Shown: positions 12,171 through 22,593 of the stretch, piece by piece
Layout: every line of letters starts with the position of its first letter
How positions within the stretch are numbered: position 1 is the first letter of the stretch
Assembly: GCA_003574685.1 (NCBI GenBank)
Contig: QOCQ01000009.1
Coordinates: 1 to 64,000, forward strand
Length of the DNA: 64,000 nt
Source: Rhodospirillaceae bacterium SYSU D60007
Lineage (GTDB): Bacteria > Pseudomonadota > Alphaproteobacteria > Reyranellales > Reyranellaceae
Reading direction: 5' to 3'
The notes under the pieces: model-generated
What the model was told of the DNA's origin: nothing
The model's input: only the letters and a program-made list of their open reading frames with translations
The model's database searches: none
Program-made: the position numbers and the translations under genes

Positions 12171-12283
12171 CCTTCATGGTGAGCTTTGTCGAACCATGAA
12201 GGCGCCGTGCGGCCCCCAGCGTGGGGCGCTTCATGGTTCGACCCGGTGGATGCTTCGCATCCACCTGTGCTCACCATGAAGCG
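12171..12283. repeat. Family C palindrome, copy 1, interrupted by a 26-base hairpin
   Basis: The left arm at 12171-12202 is itself a hairpin (cttcatggt ... aaccatgaag). The right arm, cttcatggttcgac ... gctcaccatgaag, is split by 26 bases (12243-12268) that form a separate hairpin, ggtggatgc-ttc-gcatccacc. The right half lies inside the 3' end of the RluA-type gene on the minus strand and encodes its final residues and stop codon. Confidence 0.9.
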
Positions 12284-12995
12284 GGTCTCCGGCACCGAGA
12301 TAACCGCATGCCCGCAGCGCTGCCAGCATGTGCGGCGGCGGCGGGGCCTCGACCATGATGGGCGGCTTGCCTTCCTTGAGCGGGATGGAGAGGGCGCGGG
12401 CGTGCAGGTGAAGGGGTGGCGATGATCCGCGCACGGGTGCGGCGCCGTACAGCGGATCGCCGACGATGGGACAGCCCAGCGCGGCGCAGTGCACGCGGAT
12501 CTGGTGCGTGCGGCCGGTGCGCGGACGCAGCTCCAGCCAGCCCAGGCCGTCGCCGTGGCCGAGAAGACGATAGCCAGTAACGGCCTTCTGCCCGGACGGA
12601 TCGGGCAGCATCCGCCAGCCGCCGTCGCGACGCGATACCTTGCGCAGGGGCTGGTCGATCGTTCCCTCTGCCTGCGCCGGTGTGCCGTGGACGACAGCCC
12701 AGTAGACCTTCTCGATCTTGCCGGCGGCGAAGAGCGCGCCGAGCTTGCGCAGCGCCTTGGGGTGCCGTCCCAGCACCAGGCATCCCGACGTATCCCGGTC
12801 CAGACGGTGCGCCAGCGCCGGCGGTTTTGACCAGCCGAAGCGCAGCGCATCGAACATCGCCTCGAGGTTCGGCCCGCCGCCAGGGCCGGGATGCACGGCA
12901 ATCCCCGCCGGCTTGTCGATCACCAGCATCAGCCCGTCGCGGTAGAGCACGCGCCCGACCAGCTCGTCGGCGGAGAGGACGGCGGCGCGTGGCAT
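12231..12995 (-). CDS. RluA family pseudouridine synthase
   Basis: A 254-residue RNA pseudouridine synthase. The catalytic motif is HRLDRDTSG with D66, and RTHQIRVHCAALGCPIVGD is the conserved C-terminal block of the RluA/RluC/RluD group. There is no N-terminal S4 domain, as in RluA-like single-domain enzymes acting on rRNA or tRNA. The last 17 or so residues (PLHGEHRWMRS and onward) are encoded by the family C palindrome at 12228-12283, which also provides the TGA. The native C-terminus was probably replaced or extended when the repeat inserted. Which uridine is modified cannot be told. Confidence 0.9.
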   Translation of the reverse strand: MPRAAVLSADELVGRVLYRDGLMLVIDKPAGIAVHPGPGGGPNLEAMFDALRFGWSKPPALAHRLDRDTSGCLVLGRHPKALRKLGALFAAGKIEKVYWAVVHGTPAQAEGTIDQPLRKVSRRDGGWRMLPDPSGQKAVTGYRLLGHGDGLGWLELRPRTGRTHQIRVHCAALGCPIVGDPLYGAAPVRGSSPPLHLHARALSIPLKEGKPPIMVEAPPPPHMLAALRACGYLGAGDPLHGEHRWMRSIHRVEP

Positions 12996-12998
12996 GGT

Positions 12999-13796
12999 TC
13001 AGCCGCCTATCACCACGGCGGCCGACCGGTTGCGCAGGGTCTTGACGATGGCGTGGCCGACCAGCGTGCTGGTCTTGCGGTTCTCCGGCGAGGGCACGAG
13101 ATCCTCGACGAAGCGCATCGAGCCCAGCGGCCCTCGGGCGGTGATCTCGCAGACATGCGTGGTGATCGTGGGGTCGGCAATGATGACGACGCGCGTACGG
13201 TCGAGCCCGATGCCGGCCAGTGCGGTGGCGGCCGATATGTTGACGTTCTGCGGGTAGAGCTTCGCGCCTTCGCGGACGGGGCCGTCGAAGAGGACCTGCG
13301 GCGCCGTGAGGGCATCAAGATCGGTCAGTCTCTCGGCAGCGGTGCCTTTCCACGAGGCGGGATCCTTGCGCACGGTGATCACCGCTTCGTCCAGGCCGCC
13401 TTCGGCCAGAGCGGCCAGCATGTCCAGCCCGCCAATGCCGGCGGCCGGCAGATAAACGCGACGTCCGTTCGCGCGGGCAGCATGCGCGACGCGCTCCAGC
13501 AGGGCCGTGTCGGTGAAGGCGCCCACGGACGTCACGTAGAGATCGGCGCCGCCGTCCAGCACCCGCACGGCATAGTCGCGCACCGCCTGGTGACCGGCAC
13601 CTTCCACGACCACGTCGAGCAGGTAGCGGAAGAACCAGTCGGGATCGTGCGTGATATCAGGCTTCTCGCTGGAAGGCGGACGCGGCGTGCGCACCAGGGC
13701 CGTGGTGAGCTCGATGCCCTCCAGCCGGCCGGCAGCGACAGCCTCGGCAATCCGTCTGCCGATGGCACCGAAGCCGATCATGCCAAGCCTGGTCAT
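12999..13796 (-). CDS. L-aspartate dehydrogenase family protein
   Basis: A 265-residue protein with an N-terminal Rossmann motif (GMIGFGAIGRRIAEAV) and the C-terminal DUF108 signature YPQNVNISAATALAGIGLD, as in aspartate dehydrogenases (NadX type). The reaction would be L-aspartate plus NAD(P)+ to iminoaspartate or oxaloacetate plus ammonia. ATG at 13796 follows GGATCGAG. It begins one base after the DctM stop, so it belongs to the TRAP operon, and no nadA or nadC is nearby. That favours catabolism of an imported amino or keto acid over NAD synthesis; this is inference. Confidence 0.8.
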   Translation of the reverse strand: MTRLGMIGFGAIGRRIAEAVAAGRLEGIELTTALVRTPRPPSSEKPDITHDPDWFFRYLLDVVVEGAGHQAVRDYAVRVLDGGADLYVTSVGAFTDTALLERVAHAARANGRRVYLPAAGIGGLDMLAALAEGGLDEAVITVRKDPASWKGTAAERLTDLDALTAPQVLFDGPVREGAKLYPQNVNISAATALAGIGLDRTRVVIIADPTITTHVCEITARGPLGSMRFVEDLVPSPENRKTSTLVGHAIVKTLRNRSAAVVIGG

Positions 13797-13797
13797 C

Positions 13798-15168
13798 TCA
13801 GCTCGATCCGTAGAACAGCCGCGGCAACCAGAGAACGATGCCGGGGAAGATGATGCAAAGGCTGACACCAAGTCCCTGCAGAATGAGAAACGGTATCGCG
13901 CCGCGGATAATCGTCGCCATGGTTACCTGCGGTGGCGCCACGCTCTTGAGATAGAAAAGCGAGTAGCCGAACGGCGGTGACAGGAAGGCCATCTGCATGT
14001 TGACCATGAAGATCACGCCGTACCACAGGGCGACGTCCGAGGATGCGACGCCGGGGAATCCGAGCAGGCCGTCAAAACTAAGCGCCTTCAGGATCGGCAG
14101 GAAGATCGGCACGGTCAGCAGCAGGATTCCGACCCAGTCGATGAACATGCCGAGCACGAACAGGATCGCCATCATCAGCAGGACGATGCCATACGGCGCG
14201 AGGCCGGTGCCCAGGATCTGGTTGGCGACGTAGGTCTGGCCGCCCTTCAGGATGAAAAACCCGACGAAGAGGGTGGCGCCAAAGAAAATCCACATCACCA
14301 TGGCGGTCGCCTTGAGCGTGGCCAGCGACGCTTCGCGCACCGTCGCCCACGTCAGCCGCCGGTGTATGGCGCAGACGATCAGCGCACCGAAGGTGCCGAT
14401 GCCCGCAGCCTCGACGGGTGTAGCGACACCGAGGAAGATCACGCCCAGGGCGACAATGATGAGAAGAATGGGCGCGATCGTCTTCTGAAGAAGCCGCAGT
14501 TTCTCGACGATGCCTACGCGCTCCTCGCGCGGCAGGGCAGGGCCCAGCTTGGGGTTCAGATACGAACGAATCGTCACATAGGCGATGTACAGCCCCGACA
14601 GCATCAGGCCGGGGAACACCGATCCGGCGAGCAGCTCGCCCAGCGACTGCTGCGCCACCACCGAATAGACGATCGCCATCACCGACGGCGGGATCAGGAT
14701 ACCGAGCGTACCGCCGGCCAGCAGGGCGCCGCAGGCGAGCTCCGGATTGTAGCCGCGCCGCAGCATGGCCGGCAGCGCGATCATCCCCATGGTCACTTCG
14801 GTCGCGCCCACGACGCCGACCATGGCGGCGAGAATCGTGCATACCACGACCGTGGCAGAGGCCAGCCCGCCCTTCAGCCCACCCAGCCACTTGTAGACGA
14901 CATCGAACAGCTCCTCGATGATGCCCGCCTTCTCCAGAATCGCCGCCATGAAGATAAAGAGCGGCACGGCCGAGAGCTGGTAGTCCGTCATGAACGGAAA
15001 CACCCGCGCCGGCAGCATGTTCAGCATCTGCGGCGAGCCGAACACGAACAGGAATATGCAGGCGAGGCTGCCCAGCGCGAAGGCCATCGGCACGCCGAGA
15101 GTCAGCAGGGCGGCGAGGCCAAGCATCATGAGGAGGCCGAGAATCTCGACCGGTGCGTCCAGGCCCAT
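13798..15168 (-). CDS. TRAP transporter large permease (DctM family)
   Basis: A 456-residue inner-membrane protein with about a dozen hydrophobic segments. Conserved DctM blocks include SAVPLFIFMAAILEKAGI and AGGTLGILIPPSVMAIVYSV. It is the Na+-coupled transport subunit that accepts substrate from the periplasmic DctP protein. It starts three bases after the small-permease stop and ends one base before aspartate dehydrogenase, so all are cotranscribed. Confidence 0.92.
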   Translation of the reverse strand: MGLDAPVEILGLLMMLGLAALLTLGVPMAFALGSLACIFLFVFGSPQMLNMLPARVFPFMTDYQLSAVPLFIFMAAILEKAGIIEELFDVVYKWLGGLKGGLASATVVVCTILAAMVGVVGATEVTMGMIALPAMLRRGYNPELACGALLAGGTLGILIPPSVMAIVYSVVAQQSLGELLAGSVFPGLMLSGLYIAYVTIRSYLNPKLGPALPREERVGIVEKLRLLQKTIAPILLIIVALGVIFLGVATPVEAAGIGTFGALIVCAIHRRLTWATVREASLATLKATAMVMWIFFGATLFVGFFILKGGQTYVANQILGTGLAPYGIVLLMMAILFVLGMFIDWVGILLLTVPIFLPILKALSFDGLLGFPGVASSDVALWYGVIFMVNMQMAFLSPPFGYSLFYLKSVAPPQVTMATIIRGAIPFLILQGLGVSLCIIFPGIVLWLPRLFYGSS

Positions 15169-15171
15169 GGC

Positions 15172-16278
15172 TCAGCTCCTCGCCGCAACCACGGTGTGAA
15201 CGTCCTTCGCCAGGCGGGCGAGCCCTTGCAGCAGCAGCAGGGCCGCGCCGATCGGGATCATCAGCTTGACCGGCCAGTACTGGATCGCCCACTCGGTGAA
15301 CGACACCTCGCCGGCGCCAACCGCGTCGGCGGCAAAGATCCAGCCGGTCCACAGCATGGTGCCGGCAAAGATGAAGAAGAAGACCGACCCGACGATGTCG
15401 CAGATCGCCTTGCCGCGCGGCGAAAGCTGGCTGTACAGCATGTCGACCCGCACGTGGCTCTCGCCCCGGTAGGCATACGCCCCGGCGATCATGTATTGCA
15501 TGCCGAACATCAGGAACGTGCTCTCGTGAACCCAGTTGGTCGGAGAGTTGAAGACATAGCGCGCGATGACCTCGAAGTAGTAGGCGACCACCGCGAGAAC
15601 CGACCAGTAGGCCACCAGCTCGCCCATGACGCGGACCGTGGCATCGATGCCGCGCGCCACCGAGCCCACCGCACCCGGAATCTCCGGTGGGGGGTCTTCG
15701 ACCAGGACCGGCTCGACCGCGGATATGACCGGCGGCGGTTCGGTCTGCCGGGCCCGGCGTACGAGTCCGGGGATGAGCAAGGCATCGATCAGCAGCAGTA
15801 CGAGCACCAGGCCGGCGGTACCGCGCATGACCAGGTTGGCGCGATCAATCGCCGCGTTGGCCGCAGCGTAGTCTTCCTTTGCCTTGGCAAGCTGCGTCTC
15901 GCTGCGTTCGATGCGCTTCTGCGCATCGAGGCTGCCGCGTTCCGCCGCGGGCCGCGTGCGTTCGATGACGCGCCCGAGGCTCTCGACATCCTGCCGCGCC
16001 TTCGACAGCAGCTCGCGGCCATCGCGATACAGATCCCCGCCGTAGATGACCACCACGAACAGCGGCAGGAACACGAACCCCCAGGCGCTCTTGAGATAGA
16101 ACCGGTGCATGCCGAGGAAGCCGGCGAACAGCCAGAAAAGGTAGGCGAGAAAAAGATTGGCCTGCCCGTCATCCCTGCTGTTCCTGGTTTTCGCCACCAT
16201 GACCCAGGCGATGAGGGGAAAGACGAGCAGTGCCGACCAGTACATCCAGTGCGGCAGCACAAATCCGATCGAGGGCAT
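15172..16278 (-). CDS. TM2 domain-coiled coil-DctQ fusion: TRAP small permease with large N-terminal extension
   Basis: A 368-residue protein, about twice the usual DctQ length. Residues 12-28 are hydrophobic. Residues 41-80 look like a TM2 domain: a membrane helix, the turn GFLGMHRFYL, then a second helix. Residues 86-148 are charged and helical, likely a coiled coil. Another membrane helix lies at 155-172, then a Pro-rich linker. DctQ homology runs from about 210 to 355, with FEVIARYVFNSPTNWVHE and ESHVRVDM. It sits where DctQ belongs, between DctP and DctM. The DNA shows one uninterrupted frame, so the fusion is not an assembly gap. What the TM2 module adds is unknown. Confidence 0.85.
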   Translation of the reverse strand: MPSIGFVLPHWMYWSALLVFPLIAWVMVAKTRNSRDDGQANLFLAYLFWLFAGFLGMHRFYLKSAWGFVFLPLFVVVIYGGDLYRDGRELLSKARQDVESLGRVIERTRPAAERGSLDAQKRIERSETQLAKAKEDYAAANAAIDRANLVMRGTAGLVLVLLLIDALLIPGLVRRARQTEPPPVISAVEPVLVEDPPPEIPGAVGSVARGIDATVRVMGELVAYWSVLAVVAYYFEVIARYVFNSPTNWVHESTFLMFGMQYMIAGAYAYRGESHVRVDMLYSQLSPRGKAICDIVGSVFFFIFAGTMLWTGWIFAADAVGAGEVSFTEWAIQYWPVKLMIPIGAALLLLQGLARLAKDVHTVVAARS

Positions 16279-16354: not shown

Positions 16355-17473
16355 TCAGAGATCCAGCTTCAGACCCTTGTACATGTCCGGCTCGACGTAG
16401 CCGAAGGTGGGCGACTCCATCAGTTCAAGCTGCAGCTTGAAGATGCGGGCGGCATCCTTGTCCTTGTTGGCCCACTTGAACCAGATGGGTACGGCAACGC
16501 GCTGGAACTTCTCGAGGTCTTCGGGAGGGAGACGGTTGACCTCGGTGCCGGCCTTGATGAACCTGGCCCAGGCCTCGACGTCCGCCTGCTGGATGGCAGC
16601 ATGGTGCAGTCTTGAATAGACCTCGACCTCGTCTTCCACCCAACGCTTCATTTTGGCCGACAGCTTGTTCCAATGGTTCAGGCCGACACAGAAGTCCATA
16701 AGGTCGACCGGCTGGTAGACGGATGCCAGGCCGCTCGGCCCCATCCAGATGTATTTCGTCACTTGCTGGAAGCCGAGATCCCAGTTGACCGCCGGGCCGG
16801 TGTAGTCGGCTGCGTCAATGGTGCCCTTCTCGAGGGCGGAGAACACCTCGCCGCCCGGCAACAGCGTGGTCTTGGCACCGATGGCGGCGAAGCCCTCGGC
16901 GATCATGCCGCCTGGGACGCGGATCTTGAGATCCTTGAAGTCCTCGATCGAGCGGATCGCCTTCTTGGAGTGGACGATGTTGGGGCCGTGATGGATGCGC
17001 CCGACATACATGAGGCCCTGCTTGGCGAAGACCTCGCGTGCCGCCTTGAGGCCGCCATGGCCATAGAAGAAGACGTCCCATTCGTGCGGATAGCGCAGCC
17101 CCATCAGGTAGGACGAGAGAAAGGCGGTGGCCGGAATTTTCCCCGCCCAGTACAGGGTGAAGGAGTTCATGGCCTCCAGGACCCCGCTCTTGACGCCATC
17201 CAGCAATTCGAAGTCGCCGACGATCTCCTTGGCGCCGAATGGCTTGAATTCCAGCTCGCCGCCGGTCTTTTCCTTGATGCTGGTGCACCACTGCTTGAAG
17301 GTCGCGAGCCCGACGCCCGCCGGCCAGGACGTCTGAACCTTCCACGTAGTGGTTTCCGCCGCCGCGGCGTTGCGCACATGCGGCATGGCAACGACCGCGG
17401 CAGCGGCAACCGTACCGCCTTTCAGCAGCCTGCGGCGATTGACGCTGGGTTGGGTGGAGTTGCGAATTCTCAT
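16355..17473 (-). CDS. TRAP transporter substrate-binding protein (DctP, TakP-like), Tat-exported
   Basis: A 372-residue periplasmic binding protein. The N-terminus has a twin-arginine signal (NRRRLLKGGTVAAAAVVA), then mature sequence TWKVQTSWPAGVG. Features such as KIRVPGGMIAEGFAAIGAKT and DAADYTGPAVNWDLGF resemble the alpha-keto-acid/mannitol-chloroaromatic branch of TRAP binding proteins (TakP type). ATG at 17473 follows GGGAGGAAAGG; the frame extends upstream without coding character. It is first in the operon DctP, TM2-DctQ, DctM, aspartate dehydrogenase. It diverges from a 2-oxoacid oxidoreductase operon, which fits a 2-oxoacid substrate but does not prove it. Confidence 0.88.
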   Translation of the reverse strand: MRIRNSTQPSVNRRRLLKGGTVAAAAVVAMPHVRNAAAAETTTWKVQTSWPAGVGLATFKQWCTSIKEKTGGELEFKPFGAKEIVGDFELLDGVKSGVLEAMNSFTLYWAGKIPATAFLSSYLMGLRYPHEWDVFFYGHGGLKAAREVFAKQGLMYVGRIHHGPNIVHSKKAIRSIEDFKDLKIRVPGGMIAEGFAAIGAKTTLLPGGEVFSALEKGTIDAADYTGPAVNWDLGFQQVTKYIWMGPSGLASVYQPVDLMDFCVGLNHWNKLSAKMKRWVEDEVEVYSRLHHAAIQQADVEAWARFIKAGTEVNRLPPEDLEKFQRVAVPIWFKWANKDKDAARIFKLQLELMESPTFGYVEPDMYKGLKLDL

Positions 17474-17800
17474 GGCCTTTCCTCCCATTGCCACCGGACG
17501 ATGGACCATCGCGACGATCTCCGGGTGGCGTTTGAACCGCGCGTTTGATGAGTGACCCTGCATTCCGATTTTCGCGCGCCGCGACCTTGGCACCTGTTGC
17601 GCATAGCCGCAAGGAAAGTGGCGGAGTCGGCCGAGGGTGCCTACCTGTCAGGTCGCGGAGCACGTGTCTCGATCCTGCGTCTCACGAAAAGGACGCTCGC
17701 ACGCCCTTCGCCAACCGATTAACCAGCGCAGGGTGACGATAAAGACCACAGTAGCTTTAGGGAAATTCGCGCAACGCAGGGCACCTCGCCGAATTAGCGG
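17474..17800. promoter_or_regulatory. 327-bp divergent intergenic region between the TRAP and 2-oxoacid oxidoreductase operons
   Basis: No coding frame, RNA gene or family A/B/C repeat is visible here. It must hold the promoters of both divergent operons. The part near 17720-17800 is somewhat less GC-rich than its surroundings. I could not identify convincing -35/-10 boxes or an operator. Confidence 0.45.
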
Positions 17801-19705
17801 GTGTTTCCGTTGGCTGAGTCGGGTAAATATCTCGTAACCCACAAGAATCGGGAGCCATACAGCCCCCGCGCATGGCTCCCGGGAGGAAGCAGGTTGAGAG
17901 CAACGGATATCGGCAATCCCGACTATTTTCACAAAGTCGTCGATTGCCAGTGGGCGTGTCCGGCGCATACGCCGGTGCCCGAATACATCCGGCTGATCGC
18001 ACATGGGCGCTACGACGACGCCTATATGATCAACTGGAAGTCCAACGTGTTCCCCGGAATTCTCGGCCGGACGTGCGACCGGCCGTGCGAGCCCGCGTGC
18101 CGCCGCGGCCGGGTCGAGGATGAGACCCTGGTCAACAACAAGAAGGAGCCCGTCGCGATCTGCCGTCTGAAGCGCGTGGCCGCGGACTACAAGAACGGCA
18201 TCGAGGCGCGCCTGCCCAGGGCGCCGGCACAGAAGATCGGCAAAACGGTGGCCTGCGTCGGCGGCGGGCCGGCATCGCTGACAGTGGCGCGCGATCTCGC
18301 GGTGCTTGGCTACGACATCGTCATCTTCGATCAGGATCCGAAGCTGGGCGGCATGATCCGCACCCAGATCCCGCGCTTCCGTCTGCCCGAATCGGTGATC
18401 GACGAAGAGGTCGCCTACATCACCGGCATCGGCAACATCGAGTTCCGCCATCGCCGCATCGATTCGATGAAGGCGCTGCTGGCCGAAGGCTTCGATGCGA
18501 TCTTCGTGGGCTCGGGCGCACCGCGGGGGCGCGATCTCGACATCCCCGGCCGCAAGGAAGCCGCGGCGAACATCCATATCGGCATCGACTGGCTGTCGAA
18601 CGTCTCGTTCGGGCACATCGACAAGATCGGCAAGCGCGTGATCGTGCTGGGTGGCGGCAACACGGCGATGGATTGCTGCCGCACCTCGCGCCGCCTGGGC
18701 GGCACCGACGTCAAGGTGATCGTGCGTTCGGGCTTCGAGGAGATGAAAGCGTCCCCCTGGGAGAAGGAGGACGCCATGCGCGAGGACATCCCGATTCTGA
18801 ACTTCCTCGTGCCCAAGGAGTTCACGCACAAGGAGGGACGGCTGACCGGCGTGCTGTTCGAGAAGGTCAAGGCGGTCTACGACGAGAAGGGGCGCCGCAG
18901 CCTCGTGCCCGCGGGCGAGCCCGACCAGCATTTCGAGTGCGACGATGTTCTGGTGGCCGTCGGTCAGGAGAACGCCTTCCCCTGGATGGAGAACGACTGC
19001 GGCATCGAATTCGACAAGTGGCACATGCCGAAGGTCGACACCACGACCATGGCCTCCACGCATCCCAAAGTGTTCTTCGGCGGCGATGCGGCTTTCGGCC
19101 CCAAGAACATCATCTGGGCGGCCGCGCACGGGCACGATGCGGCGATCTCGATCCACAAGTTCCTGCACGGCGAGGATGTAAACCAGCGGCCGGCGCCCGG
19201 CATGAACATCGTCAGCCAGAAGATGGGCATCCACGAGTGGAGCTACGACAACGACATCTCGGTCGTGGCGCGCTTCAAGGTGCCGCATCGCGAGAAAACC
19301 GAAGCGCTGCGGGATATCAGGGCGGAGGTCGAGCTGGGCTACGACACGCTGCTGGCATGGAAGGAAGCGCAGCGCTGCCTGAACTGTGACGTGCAGACGG
19401 TCTTCACCGGCAGCCTGTGCATCGAGTGCGATGCCTGCGTTGACATCTGCCCGATGGACTGCATCACCTTCACCGAGAACGGCGAGGAGCAGGAGCTGCG
19501 TGGCCGGCTGATGGCGCCGGCGCTCAATACCAGCCAGGACCTCTATATCGGTGATGGTCTGAAGACCGGCCGCATCATGGCCAAGGATGAGGACGTCTGT
19601 CTCCACTGTGGGCTGTGCGCCGAACGCTGCCCGACGGGCGCGTGGGACATGCGCAAGTACTACATCGAGATGACGCACGCGGGGCACGCATGCCACAAAA
19701 GCTAG
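17801..19705 (+). CDS. GltD-like FAD oxidoreductase with N- and C-terminal Fe-S motifs, partner of a 2-oxoacid oxidoreductase (KorC-like)
   Basis: About 634 residues. The N-terminal part has the cysteine pattern of GltD-type proteins (CQWACPAHTPVPEYI, then CDRPCEPACRRGR). A flavin site GGGPASL and an NAD(P) site GGGNTAMDC follow. The C-terminus carries two ferredoxin-like clusters, CIECDACVDICPMDC and CLHCGLCAERCP. It would pass electrons between NAD(P)H and the 2-oxoacid oxidoreductase encoded by the next two genes, like the third subunit of KorABC-type 2-oxoglutarate oxidoreductases. The start is uncertain: GTG 17801 is the first possible codon and has no good ribosome binding site. The 3' end overlaps the next gene by 16 bases. 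Confidence 0.85.
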   Translation: MFPLAESGKYLVTHKNREPYSPRAWLPGGSRLRATDIGNPDYFHKVVDCQWACPAHTPVPEYIRLIAHGRYDDAYMINWKSNVFPGILGRTCDRPCEPACRRGRVEDETLVNNKKEPVAICRLKRVAADYKNGIEARLPRAPAQKIGKTVACVGGGPASLTVARDLAVLGYDIVIFDQDPKLGGMIRTQIPRFRLPESVIDEEVAYITGIGNIEFRHRRIDSMKALLAEGFDAIFVGSGAPRGRDLDIPGRKEAAANIHIGIDWLSNVSFGHIDKIGKRVIVLGGGNTAMDCCRTSRRLGGTDVKVIVRSGFEEMKASPWEKEDAMREDIPILNFLVPKEFTHKEGRLTGVLFEKVKAVYDEKGRRSLVPAGEPDQHFECDDVLVAVGQENAFPWMENDCGIEFDKWHMPKVDTTTMASTHPKVFFGGDAAFGPKNIIWAAAHGHDAAISIHKFLHGEDVNQRPAPGMNIVSQKMGIHEWSYDNDISVVARFKVPHREKTEALRDIRAEVELGYDTLLAWKEAQRCLNCDVQTVFTGSLCIECDACVDICPMDCITFTENGEEQELRGRLMAPALNTSQDLYIGDGLKTGRIMAKDEDVCLHCGLCAERCPTGAWDMRKYYIEMTHAGHACHKS

Positions 19706-21522
19706 AGGCGGTGAACGACTTCGTCGTCAAGTTTGCCAACGTCAACGGATCGGGCTCTGCGTCGGCCAACGAGCTGTTCGCGCGCTCGATCCTGCGCATG
19801 GGCGTGCCGGTCAGTCCGCGGAACATCTTCCCTTCGAACATCCAGGGGCTGCCGACCTGGTACGAGGTGCGGGTCACGGAAAGGGGCTATCTCGGACGGC
19901 GCGGCGGCGTCGATCTGATGGTGGCGATGAACCCGCAGACCTGGGACGAGGACGTCAAGGAAATCGAGCCGGGCGGCTATCTGTTCTATGACGCCACCAA
20001 GCCGATGCCGCCCTCGATGTTCCGGCCCGACATCAACGTGATCGGCGTGCCGCTGACGGCCATCTGCAACGCCACCTACACCGACGCCCGCCAGCGCCAG
20101 CTCTTCAAGAACATCATCTATGTCGGCGCGCTGTCGGTGCTGCTGGACATTGATCCGAAGGAGATCGAGCGGCTGTTCGGCGAGCAATACAAGGGCAAGG
20201 AGAAGCTGCTCGACAGCAACGTCAAGGCGCTGCAGCTGGGGCGCGACTGGGTGCTGAACAACATGGACCCGTCGGCGGTGAAGCTGAAGGTGCGCCGCGC
20301 CAGTGCCGTGGGCGACCGCATCTTTGTCGAGGGCAATAACGCGGCTGCCTTGGGCTGCGTCTACGGCGGTGCCACCGTCTGCGCCTGGTATCCGATCACG
20401 CCCAGCTCGTCGCTGGCCGAAGCCTTCCAGGCGCATTGCCGCTGGCTGCGGCACGACAAGGAAACCGGCAAGGCGAAGTACGCCATCGTGCAGGCCGAGG
20501 ACGAGCTGGCCTCGATCGGCATCGTGATCGGCGCCGGCTGGAACGGGGCGCGCGCCTTCACCTCAACCTCGGGGCCGGGCATCTCGCTGATGACCGAGTT
20601 CATCGGCCTCGCCTACTTCGCCGAAGTGCCGGCAGTGATCATCAACGTGCAGCGCGGCGGACCGTCTACCGGCATGCCCACCCGCACGCAGCAGGCGGAT
20701 ATTCTCTCCTGCGCACTGGCGTCCAACGGCGACACCAGGCACGTCCTGCTGTTTCCCGAGGACCCGAAGGAGTGCTTCGACTTCGCCGCCGCGGCGCTTG
20801 ATCTGGCAGACCGCCTGCAGACGCCGGTATTCGTCATGACCGACCTCGACATCGGCATGAATCACCGTCTGTGCGCACCCTTCGAATGGGACGATTCGCG
20901 GGCCTACGACCGCGGCAAGGTGATGACGGCCGAGCAGTTGCAGAACGCCAAAGCCAGGTTCGGCCGGTACCTCGATGTCGATGGCGACGGCATTCCGTAT
21001 CGCACCTATCCCGGCACGCATCCGACCAAGGGATCGTTCTTCACCCGCGGCACCACGAAAGACCGCTACGCCAAGTACAGCGAGGAAGGACCGGTCTACG
21101 TCGATAACATGGAACGGCTGGTGCGCAAGTTCGAGACGGCCAGGACACTGGTGCCACAACCGGTGCTGCGGCCGGCCCGCAAGGCAACGCGCAGCGGCGT
21201 GATCTATTTCGGCTCGACCAGCCCGGCCATGAGCGAGGCGCTGGACCGGCTGGAGGAGCGCGGCGTGCATCTGGATGCGCTGCGGCTGCGGGCCTATCCG
21301 CTGAGCGCGTCCGTGGCGGAGTTCATTGACACGCATGACCAGGTTTTCCTGGTCGAGCAGAACCGCGACGGCCAGCTCCGTATGCTGCTGATGAACGACC
21401 TTGGCGTCGATCCCGGCAAGGTCATCCCGGTGCTGCACTATGACGGCACACCCATCACCGCCCGCTTCATTACCGACGCGATCCGCGCGCAACTGGCGCC
21501 CGAGCGTCTGGCGGCAGAGTAG
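19690..21522 (+). CDS. 2-oxoacid:acceptor oxidoreductase, fused gamma-alpha subunit
   Basis: A 610-residue subunit. A gamma-type domain is N-terminal (NGSGSASANELFARSILRMG). The alpha-type pyrimidine-binding domain begins near NAAALGCVYGGATVCAWYPI, with TSTSGPGISLMTEF and a C-terminal EQNRDGQLRMLL block. This gamma-alpha fusion is typical of two-subunit 2-oxoglutarate or 2-oxoisovalerate:ferredoxin oxidoreductases. They decarboxylate a 2-oxoacid to its acyl-CoA and give low-potential electrons. ATG at 19690 overlaps the upstream gene by 16 bases, implying coupling. Which 2-oxoacid is used cannot be fixed from sequence alone. Confidence 0.88.
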   Translation: MPQKLEAVNDFVVKFANVNGSGSASANELFARSILRMGVPVSPRNIFPSNIQGLPTWYEVRVTERGYLGRRGGVDLMVAMNPQTWDEDVKEIEPGGYLFYDATKPMPPSMFRPDINVIGVPLTAICNATYTDARQRQLFKNIIYVGALSVLLDIDPKEIERLFGEQYKGKEKLLDSNVKALQLGRDWVLNNMDPSAVKLKVRRASAVGDRIFVEGNNAAALGCVYGGATVCAWYPITPSSSLAEAFQAHCRWLRHDKETGKAKYAIVQAEDELASIGIVIGAGWNGARAFTSTSGPGISLMTEFIGLAYFAEVPAVIINVQRGGPSTGMPTRTQQADILSCALASNGDTRHVLLFPEDPKECFDFAAAALDLADRLQTPVFVMTDLDIGMNHRLCAPFEWDDSRAYDRGKVMTAEQLQNAKARFGRYLDVDGDGIPYRTYPGTHPTKGSFFTRGTTKDRYAKYSEEGPVYVDNMERLVRKFETARTLVPQPVLRPARKATRSGVIYFGSTSPAMSEALDRLEERGVHLDALRLRAYPLSASVAEFIDTHDQVFLVEQNRDGQLRMLLMNDLGVDPGKVIPVLHYDGTPITARFITDAIRAQLAPERLAAE

Positions 21523-21537
21523 GGTTCGGAGCAGATC

Positions 21538-22593
21538 ATGACCTACATCACCAAGCCCAAGCTGCACCATCCCTCGCTGCAGCGTAACAAGGCCGGCTAC
21601 ACCCGGCGCGACTACGAGGGATCGGTCTCGACCCTGTGCGCCGGCTGCGGCCACGACTCGATCAGCGCCGCCATCATCCAGGCCTGCTACGAGCTCGACG
21701 TGCAGCCGCACCAGGTCGCCAAGCTGTCGGGCATCGGCTGCTCATCGAAGACACCGACCTATTTCCTGGGGCACAGCCACGGCTTCAACACCGTGCATGG
21801 CCGCATGCCCTCAGTGCTGACCGGTGCCAATCTCGCCAACCGCGATCTGATCTACATGGGCGTGTCCGGGGACGGCGATTCGGCCTCGATCGGGATGGGT
21901 CAATTCGCGCACATCATGCGGCGCGGCGTGAACATGGTGTACATCGTCATGAACAATGGCGTGTACGGACTGACCAAGGGCCAGTTCTCGGCCACCGCCG
22001 ATCGCGGCTCGGTTAGCAAGAAGGGCGTCGCCAATTCCGATTCGTCGATCGATCTGGTGTCGATGGCGATCCTGATGGGCGCCACCTTCGTGGCGCGCAG
22101 CTTCTCGGGCGACAAGCAGCAGCTCGTGCCGCTGGTCAAGGCCGCAATCGAGCATCGCGGTGCCGCCTTCCTCGACGTCATCAGCCCGTGCGTGGCCTTC
22201 AACAATCATGCCGGCTCCACCAAGAGCTACGAATACGTGCGCCAGCACAACGAGGCGGTAAACCGGCTGGACTTCATCGAAAGCCGCGAGGAGATCACCA
22301 CCCAGTACGAGCCGGGGACGATGCAGGTGGTGGAGCAGCACGACGGCTCGCTGCTGCGCCTGCGCAAGCTGGCGCCGGATTACGATCCCTGCGACAAGAT
22401 CGCGGCCCTGCAGTATATCCAGGCGGCCGAGGCGGCGGGCGAGGTGGCCACGGGCCTGCTGTACGTAGAGCCCATGCCCAAGGACCTGCACGAGAACTTC
22501 AACACCGTTGAAACGCCGCTGAACCGCCTCGAGGCAAAGGACCTGTGCCCGGGCAAGGCCGCCCTCGACAAGATCAACGCTTCGTTGCGCTGA
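21538..22593 (+). CDS. 2-oxoacid:acceptor oxidoreductase, beta (TPP-binding) subunit
   Basis: A 351-residue TPP-binding subunit. The Fe-S/TPP motif CAGCGHDSI is near the N-terminus, GIGCSS follows, and the thiamine site reads GDGDSASIGMGQ with NNGVYGLTKGQ. Together with the gamma-alpha subunit upstream it forms the catalytic core. It begins 15 bases after the previous stop, in the same operon as the GltD-like electron-transfer subunit. Confidence 0.9.
   Translation: MTYITKPKLHHPSLQRNKAGYTRRDYEGSVSTLCAGCGHDSISAAIIQACYELDVQPHQVAKLSGIGCSSKTPTYFLGHSHGFNTVHGRMPSVLTGANLANRDLIYMGVSGDGDSASIGMGQFAHIMRRGVNMVYIVMNNGVYGLTKGQFSATADRGSVSKKGVANSDSSIDLVSMAILMGATFVARSFSGDKQQLVPLVKAAIEHRGAAFLDVISPCVAFNNHAGSTKSYEYVRQHNEAVNRLDFIESREEITTQYEPGTMQVVEQHDGSLLRLRKLAPDYDPCDKIAALQYIQAAEAAGEVATGLLYVEPMPKDLHENFNTVETPLNRLEAKDLCPGKAALDKINASLR

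Follow-up and report, generated by a model that had tools for sequence, protein, structure and literature searches.

The window, by which we mean the whole 64,000-nucleotide stretch of DNA analysed here, encodes a TRAP transporter whose small permease is oddly built. Ordinary DctQ proteins with which we compared it are about 170-212 aa long and lack N-terminal helices, whereas in this Q-subunit the DctQ domain is preceded by a coiled-coil hairpin and four additional hydrophobic helices. Is this combination a genuine protein, how would it sit in the membrane, and what could such an addition do for an importer?

A composite Q-subunit within a dctPQM operon

The dctQ gene (15172..16278, minus strand) is a single open frame of 368 aa with an ATG start, recognised by its Pfam DctQ and TM2 matches and by about 50 full-length homologues; its GC content by codon position (0.65/0.44/0.86) is typical for genes of the window. 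It lies on the same strand as, and between, dctP (16355..17593, minus), which encodes a Tat-type substrate-binding protein identified by Pfam DctP and a match to PDB 2zzv, and dctM (13798..15168, minus), whose 456-aa large permease matches Pfam DctM at 1.1e-78 and is 90% identical to that of L001, a homologous locus. An aspartate dehydrogenase-like gene (12999..13796, minus; NCBIfam NF009828 above cut-off, Pfam Asp_DH_C) begins 1 nt past the dctM stop and probably belongs to the same operon. A gene for an RluA-family pseudouridine synthase lies 3 nt beyond it, the pair spanning 12231-13796 (minus), and the TRAP operon may include both; at another locus, L043, an AspDH-like gene with 30% identity also adjoins the TRAP genes. 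Divergent from the TRAP operon, at 17801-22593 (plus), are genes for a GltD-like NAD(P)/4Fe-4S flavoprotein and a 2-oxoacid:acceptor oxidoreductase alpha (gamma-alpha fused)/beta pair, a set that resembles a three-part 2-oxoacid:NAD(P) oxidoreductase and is not found next to the TRAP operon at the homologous loci compared.

Read from its N-terminus, the protein consists of an N-terminal helix, a TM2 hairpin, a coiled-coil hairpin, a fourth TM and the DctQ domain (coordinates in this and the next paragraph are all on the minus strand). The original prediction had recognised a TM2 hairpin, a charged stretch, a further helix and a full DctQ domain in one frame, all of which are present, and had overlooked the first helix, TM1 (aa 10-31; 16186..16251), which is helical in the AlphaFold2 model, carries the motif FVLPHWMYW...P and occurs in module-less relatives as well. 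The N-terminal extension of DctQ that it described is thus real, but as short forms keep this helix, the extension takes the form of a TM2-coil-TM insert, flanked by an ancestral helix at the N-terminus and by DctQ. The TM2 domain (aa 41-77; 16048..16158) comprises two short hydrophobic helices linked by G-x-x-G-x-H-R-F-Y-L and matches Pfam TM2 (PF05154) at E 1.5e-5 with 25.5 bits, slightly under the cut-off of 27.9. When DctQ homologues were examined for N-terminal TM2 domains, as had been proposed at the outset, TM2 was matched at E<=1e-3 in 44 of 47 (best 7.6e-8); this breadth, together with the invariance of G53, G56, H58, R59 and Y61, rules out a chance match. The two-helix hairpin is common to TM2 proteins, including animal TM2D1-3, in which the G-x-x-G-x-H-R-F-Y-L stretch has its counterpart in the DRF loop. 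Unlike in TM2D1-3, however, the hairpin here forms part of a transporter subunit, with a coiled coil continuing its second helix.

That coiled coil is made up of an arm A (aa 81-113; 15940..16038), a turn (aa 114-116; 15931..15939) and an arm B (aa 117-151; 15826..15930), and is followed by TM4 (aa 152-173; 15760..15825), the segment with the highest family hydropathy in the protein. A hydrophilic, variable and Pro-rich linker (aa 174-207; 15658..15759), of low pLDDT and predicted to be cytoplasmic, leads to the DctQ domain (aa 208-362; 15193..15657), where the Pfam DctQ match covers aa 232-360 (E 3.5e-26; 92.1 bits, cut-off 28.3). Across the 47-row alignment the extension has eleven invariant residues (P2, H10, W14, P21, G53, G56, H58, R59, Y61, S92 and D165). 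Mean pairwise identity is 0.55 in TM1, 0.49 in TM2, 0.27 in the coil, 0.40 in TM4, 0.17 in the linker (aa 176-207) and 0.64 in DctQ; the value for the coil is low, with no specific binding surface visible.

Our scan of 84,980 species genomes returned 54 related loci, from which we built an alignment of 50 full-length rows including the window, and a 47-row set for the invariant residues. The architecture is common to about 50 other species at 40-76% identity, and dctP, dctQ and dctM are adjacent in this order wherever the contig of the homologue extends far enough. Carriers of the module belong to the Alpha- and Gammaproteobacteria, the Desulfobacterota (Deltaproteobacteria) and SAR324, and Microvirga massiliensis and Sneathiella glossodoripedis are examples of isolates among them, whilst the plasmid collection holds one long-form member, from Sinorhizobium sojae. 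One record, filed as Mesoflavibacter sp. isolate ih5 (Bacteroidota; L024), has a TRAP operon nearly identical to that of a genome of the window's own class (L113, G738), and is therefore probably mislabelled. A sequencing frameshift or an assembly error joining a TM2 gene to dctQ, an explanation that the original prediction had itself raised, is already refuted by about 50 independent genomes, isolates included, with the same architecture in full-length homologues and dctPQM operons, and its chance of being correct is practically nil.

The module also appears tied to the transporter. With the N-terminal module as query, a search of 398 Pseudomonadota genomes found the full form in only six, each time within a frame of 374-459 aa; the frames examined carry DctQ. 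As a stand-alone gene, the TM2-coil module was not found in these 398 genomes, where weaker matches were either brief or to short TM2 proteins of a generic kind. The window's genome has one copy of the module among 21 DctQ matches, a large TRAP repertoire for its 5.3 Mb. In the largely open-access literature searched, we found no description of a TM2 domain or a coiled-coil hairpin in a TRAP transporter or DctQ, and a C. sphaeroides transposon study deals with other TRAP systems. Widespread as the architecture is, it is apparently a form of a known type of transporter that has gone undescribed.

Shape and orientation of the hairpin

An AlphaFold2 model built on the 47 homologues (mean pLDDT 78.5) has helices at 10-31, 42-55, 57-61, 65-113 and 117-179, followed by those of DctQ; the two long helices reach a pLDDT of about 95-98 (about 95 in arm A), and confidence is modest in the DctQ part. 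In this model, TM2b and arm A are one helix (65-113), the chain breaks at the turn, and arm B and TM4 are again one helix (117-179), such that the charged segment is predicted to form an antiparallel coiled-coil hairpin, the antiparallel packing being deduced from the order of the helices, the shortness of the turn and Foldseek overlays. Where some 60 charged helical residues had originally been described, the segment proves indeed charged and helical, but has about 68 residues (81-148), with a strongly hydrophobic helix after it at about 152-172, and is modelled as a two-armed antiparallel hairpin rather than one helix.

Evidence independent of the model points the same way. Family-averaged hydropathy has its best period at 3.5, the heptad period, in both arms (p=0.0045 for A and p=0.0145 for B, by shuffling). 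The spacing between S92 and D165 is 73 residues in 35 of the 50 rows; the others have 66, 80 or 108 (-7, +7 and +35), with a few at 72, 74, 107, 110 and 112. The length outliers are mostly heptad steps, a few being off by one or more, and on these alignments the pattern has the look of a coiled coil under length constraint. A codon comparison of six pairs gave a pN/pS of 0.07-0.65 for the coil, by which the module is judged to be under purifying selection. The DctQ part of the model matches SiaQ (7qha_A) in Foldseek with a TM-score of 0.71 by target length and has the four-helix Q fold; indeed, the window protein is like DctQ/SiaQ (PF04290; SiaQM 7qha, 8thj) in its complete DctQ domain, its dctP/dctM operon and its fold. 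The hairpin overlays MacA-type hairpins (3fpp, 9qgy) at 1.8-1.9 Angstrom over 82-87 columns, a match that is generic and not significant (E 4.7-4.9). We claim no homology from this similar antiparallel geometry, and the window's hairpin is TM-anchored at both ends.

On which side of the membrane would it stand? SiaQ is N-in/C-in, with both periplasmic loops predicted to touch the P-subunit (PMC9971032). Given an N-in DctQ and a hydrophilic linker at 174-207, TM4, which is the most hydrophobic of the helices, must cross from the periplasmic to the cytoplasmic side; on this analysis the hairpin most likely stands in the periplasm, next to where the P-subunit docks. The positive H-R-F-Y-L-K loop of TM2 (K+R 2.2, D+E 0) would then be cytoplasmic, as in animal TM2D proteins, whose TM2 loop is intracellular (PMC8714088). 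The loop between TM1 and TM2 is positively charged too (K+R 3.2). The parity of TM1 is awkward: four spanning helices make TM1 N-in, whereas module-less relatives need it N-out, and the simplest reconciliation is probably that one helix, the 14-residue TM2a, does not span the membrane.

Module-less relatives and the likely substrate

Relatives that lack the module place it in an evolutionary context. With the clade's DctQ domain as query, 385 genomes of the window's class yielded 17 close members: in 14 the frame has 369-410 aa, one is short and two are DctM fusions. Four further short members were found in other Pseudomonadota. The N-terminal FVLPHWxYW helix is kept by all clade members, the module-less ones included, and is absent from ordinary DctQ. 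In the DctM tree, module-bearing and module-less members fall into one clade (100/99), and as the latter form a single sub-clade (100/98), this tree indicates that the module was either gained once or lost once, the root within the clade being open. The module is confined to this one TRAP clade, where it is the common form.

The module-less members have an addition of their own, in a different subunit. Their DctM, or the DctM part of their fusions, has an extra N-terminal helix and a conserved FYDPY...FLF segment (L093-L096, L050-L052, L115, L117 and L121), with about 30 residues predicted to be periplasmic. This FYDPY...FLF segment is missing from every readable module-bearing member, and the window's dctM is without the N-terminal extension. 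Before the DctM motif GLPLAF stand 79-89 residues in unfused module-less members against 24 in nearly all module-bearing ones, a comparison limited to loci with the motif detected, which leaves out some, the window's included, and in which the start codon is overshot in a few. Some module-less members (L050, L051, L115 and L117) are QM fusions, as are the TRAP permeases of the HiSiaT type, whereas the module-bearing members examined are, unlike HiSiaT, all unfused, with a short DctM N-terminus where readable. Perhaps the module on Q and the N-terminus of DctM are two different additions that serve one and the same site of the complex; since there is a single phylogenetic split, this swap between sub-clades is suggestive and does not amount to a statistical association.

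As to what is imported, the window's DctP is a near full-length relative of TTHA0766, from the calcium-lactate system of Thermus thermophilus (2zzv; E 1.3e-120, 406 bits), a dimeric protein that binds L-lactate with Ca2+ (PMC8648760). Module-less gammaproteobacterial members, for their part, adjoin glc genes, namely those for a GlcC-like FCD-GntR regulator, malate synthase G, a GlcG-like HbpS and a GlcD-like FAD oxidase. Considering both the TTHA0766-like DctP and these glc neighbours, the sequences make a 2-hydroxy-monocarboxylate of the lactate or glycolate type the likely substrate of the clade. At three of the loci (L093, L095 and L096) the TRAP operon lies in an apparent glycolate (glc) cluster, with the GlcC-like regulator and a varying selection of malate synthase G, GlcG and GlcD-like genes, suggesting a TRAP glycolate importer there. 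The neighbours of the long forms are diverse, with no single pathway or substrate indicated at the homologous loci compared. Since a DctP of the same kind serves the module-less relatives, the module is not required for lactate-type TRAP transport as such.

A putative docking tower and its rivals

What, then, could the module contribute? Our reading, which we put forward tentatively and at a shade under an even chance, is that of a lactate/glycolate-type TRAP Q-subunit with a built-in, membrane-anchored hairpin that stands in the periplasm and docks or braces DctP. Such a hairpin would stand on the Q side of QM and rise about 50 Angstrom into the periplasm, or about 75 Angstrom where the coil is of the long form. 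A rigid tower by the docking bowl of the P-subunit might conceivably capture, orient or brace the substrate-binding protein; the receptor's closest solved relative is a dimer, and the tower would brace a receptor of this dimeric type. The extra helices might also give the moving elevator domain a wider scaffold to work against. The contact between hairpin and DctP is one that we purely infer. We can push the proposal further, into a possible but rather doubtful scheme: a periplasmic docking tower borne by Q would clamp the dimeric receptor and be a fourth element of the tripartite system, with the module-less sister clade using the N-terminal extension of DctM instead.

The main rival to a docking tower is that the module anchors or oligomerises the scaffold, pairing QM complexes or fixing the scaffold in the membrane with no receptor contact at all. 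Unlikely as we consider it, this explanation has points in its favour: those who solved the SiaQM structure suggest that Q enlarges the scaffold and thereby allows QM to function as a monomer (PMC9971032), and additional TMs would enlarge that scaffold still more; oligomerisation is a frequent role of coiled coils, and low identity combined with strict coil length suits a structural element. However, the modelled coil is already satisfied inside one chain as a hairpin, which leaves less for intermolecular pairing. An improbable alternative turns the protein over, placing the coil in the cytoplasm, where it would regulate or localise the importer, the role that the original prediction had suggested for the extension. 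By K+R counts alone this arrangement gives the best positive-inside balance, but TM4, the most hydrophobic segment of the protein, would have to stay in the membrane as a non-spanning helix, which is unlikely; the invariant positive HRxY loop would become periplasmic, contrary to TM2D topology; and the charges of the coil are balanced, with a partner domain absent. A periplasmic hairpin would, moreover, suit the docking or bracing of a substrate-binding protein better than cytoplasmic regulation or localisation. Lastly, could the extension be a mere relic, the neutral passenger of an old fusion? The existence of module-less relatives speaks for this, but eleven invariant residues, purifying selection and the persistence of the extension in Alpha-, Gamma- and Deltaproteobacteria and in SAR324 make it very improbable.

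Whichever of these roles the module plays, the strict coupling of TRAP transporters to their substrate-binding proteins is poorly understood, and a conserved natural element that is probably near the docking site, together with close relatives that lack it, offers a clean comparison: setting module-bearing against module-less members could show what docking or scaffold rigidity contributes. Our analysis delimits a clade whose members, found in Proteobacteria and SAR324, are probable lactate/glycolate importers, and the TM2 domain, whose molecular function is unknown, is now placed in a system with a measurable activity.
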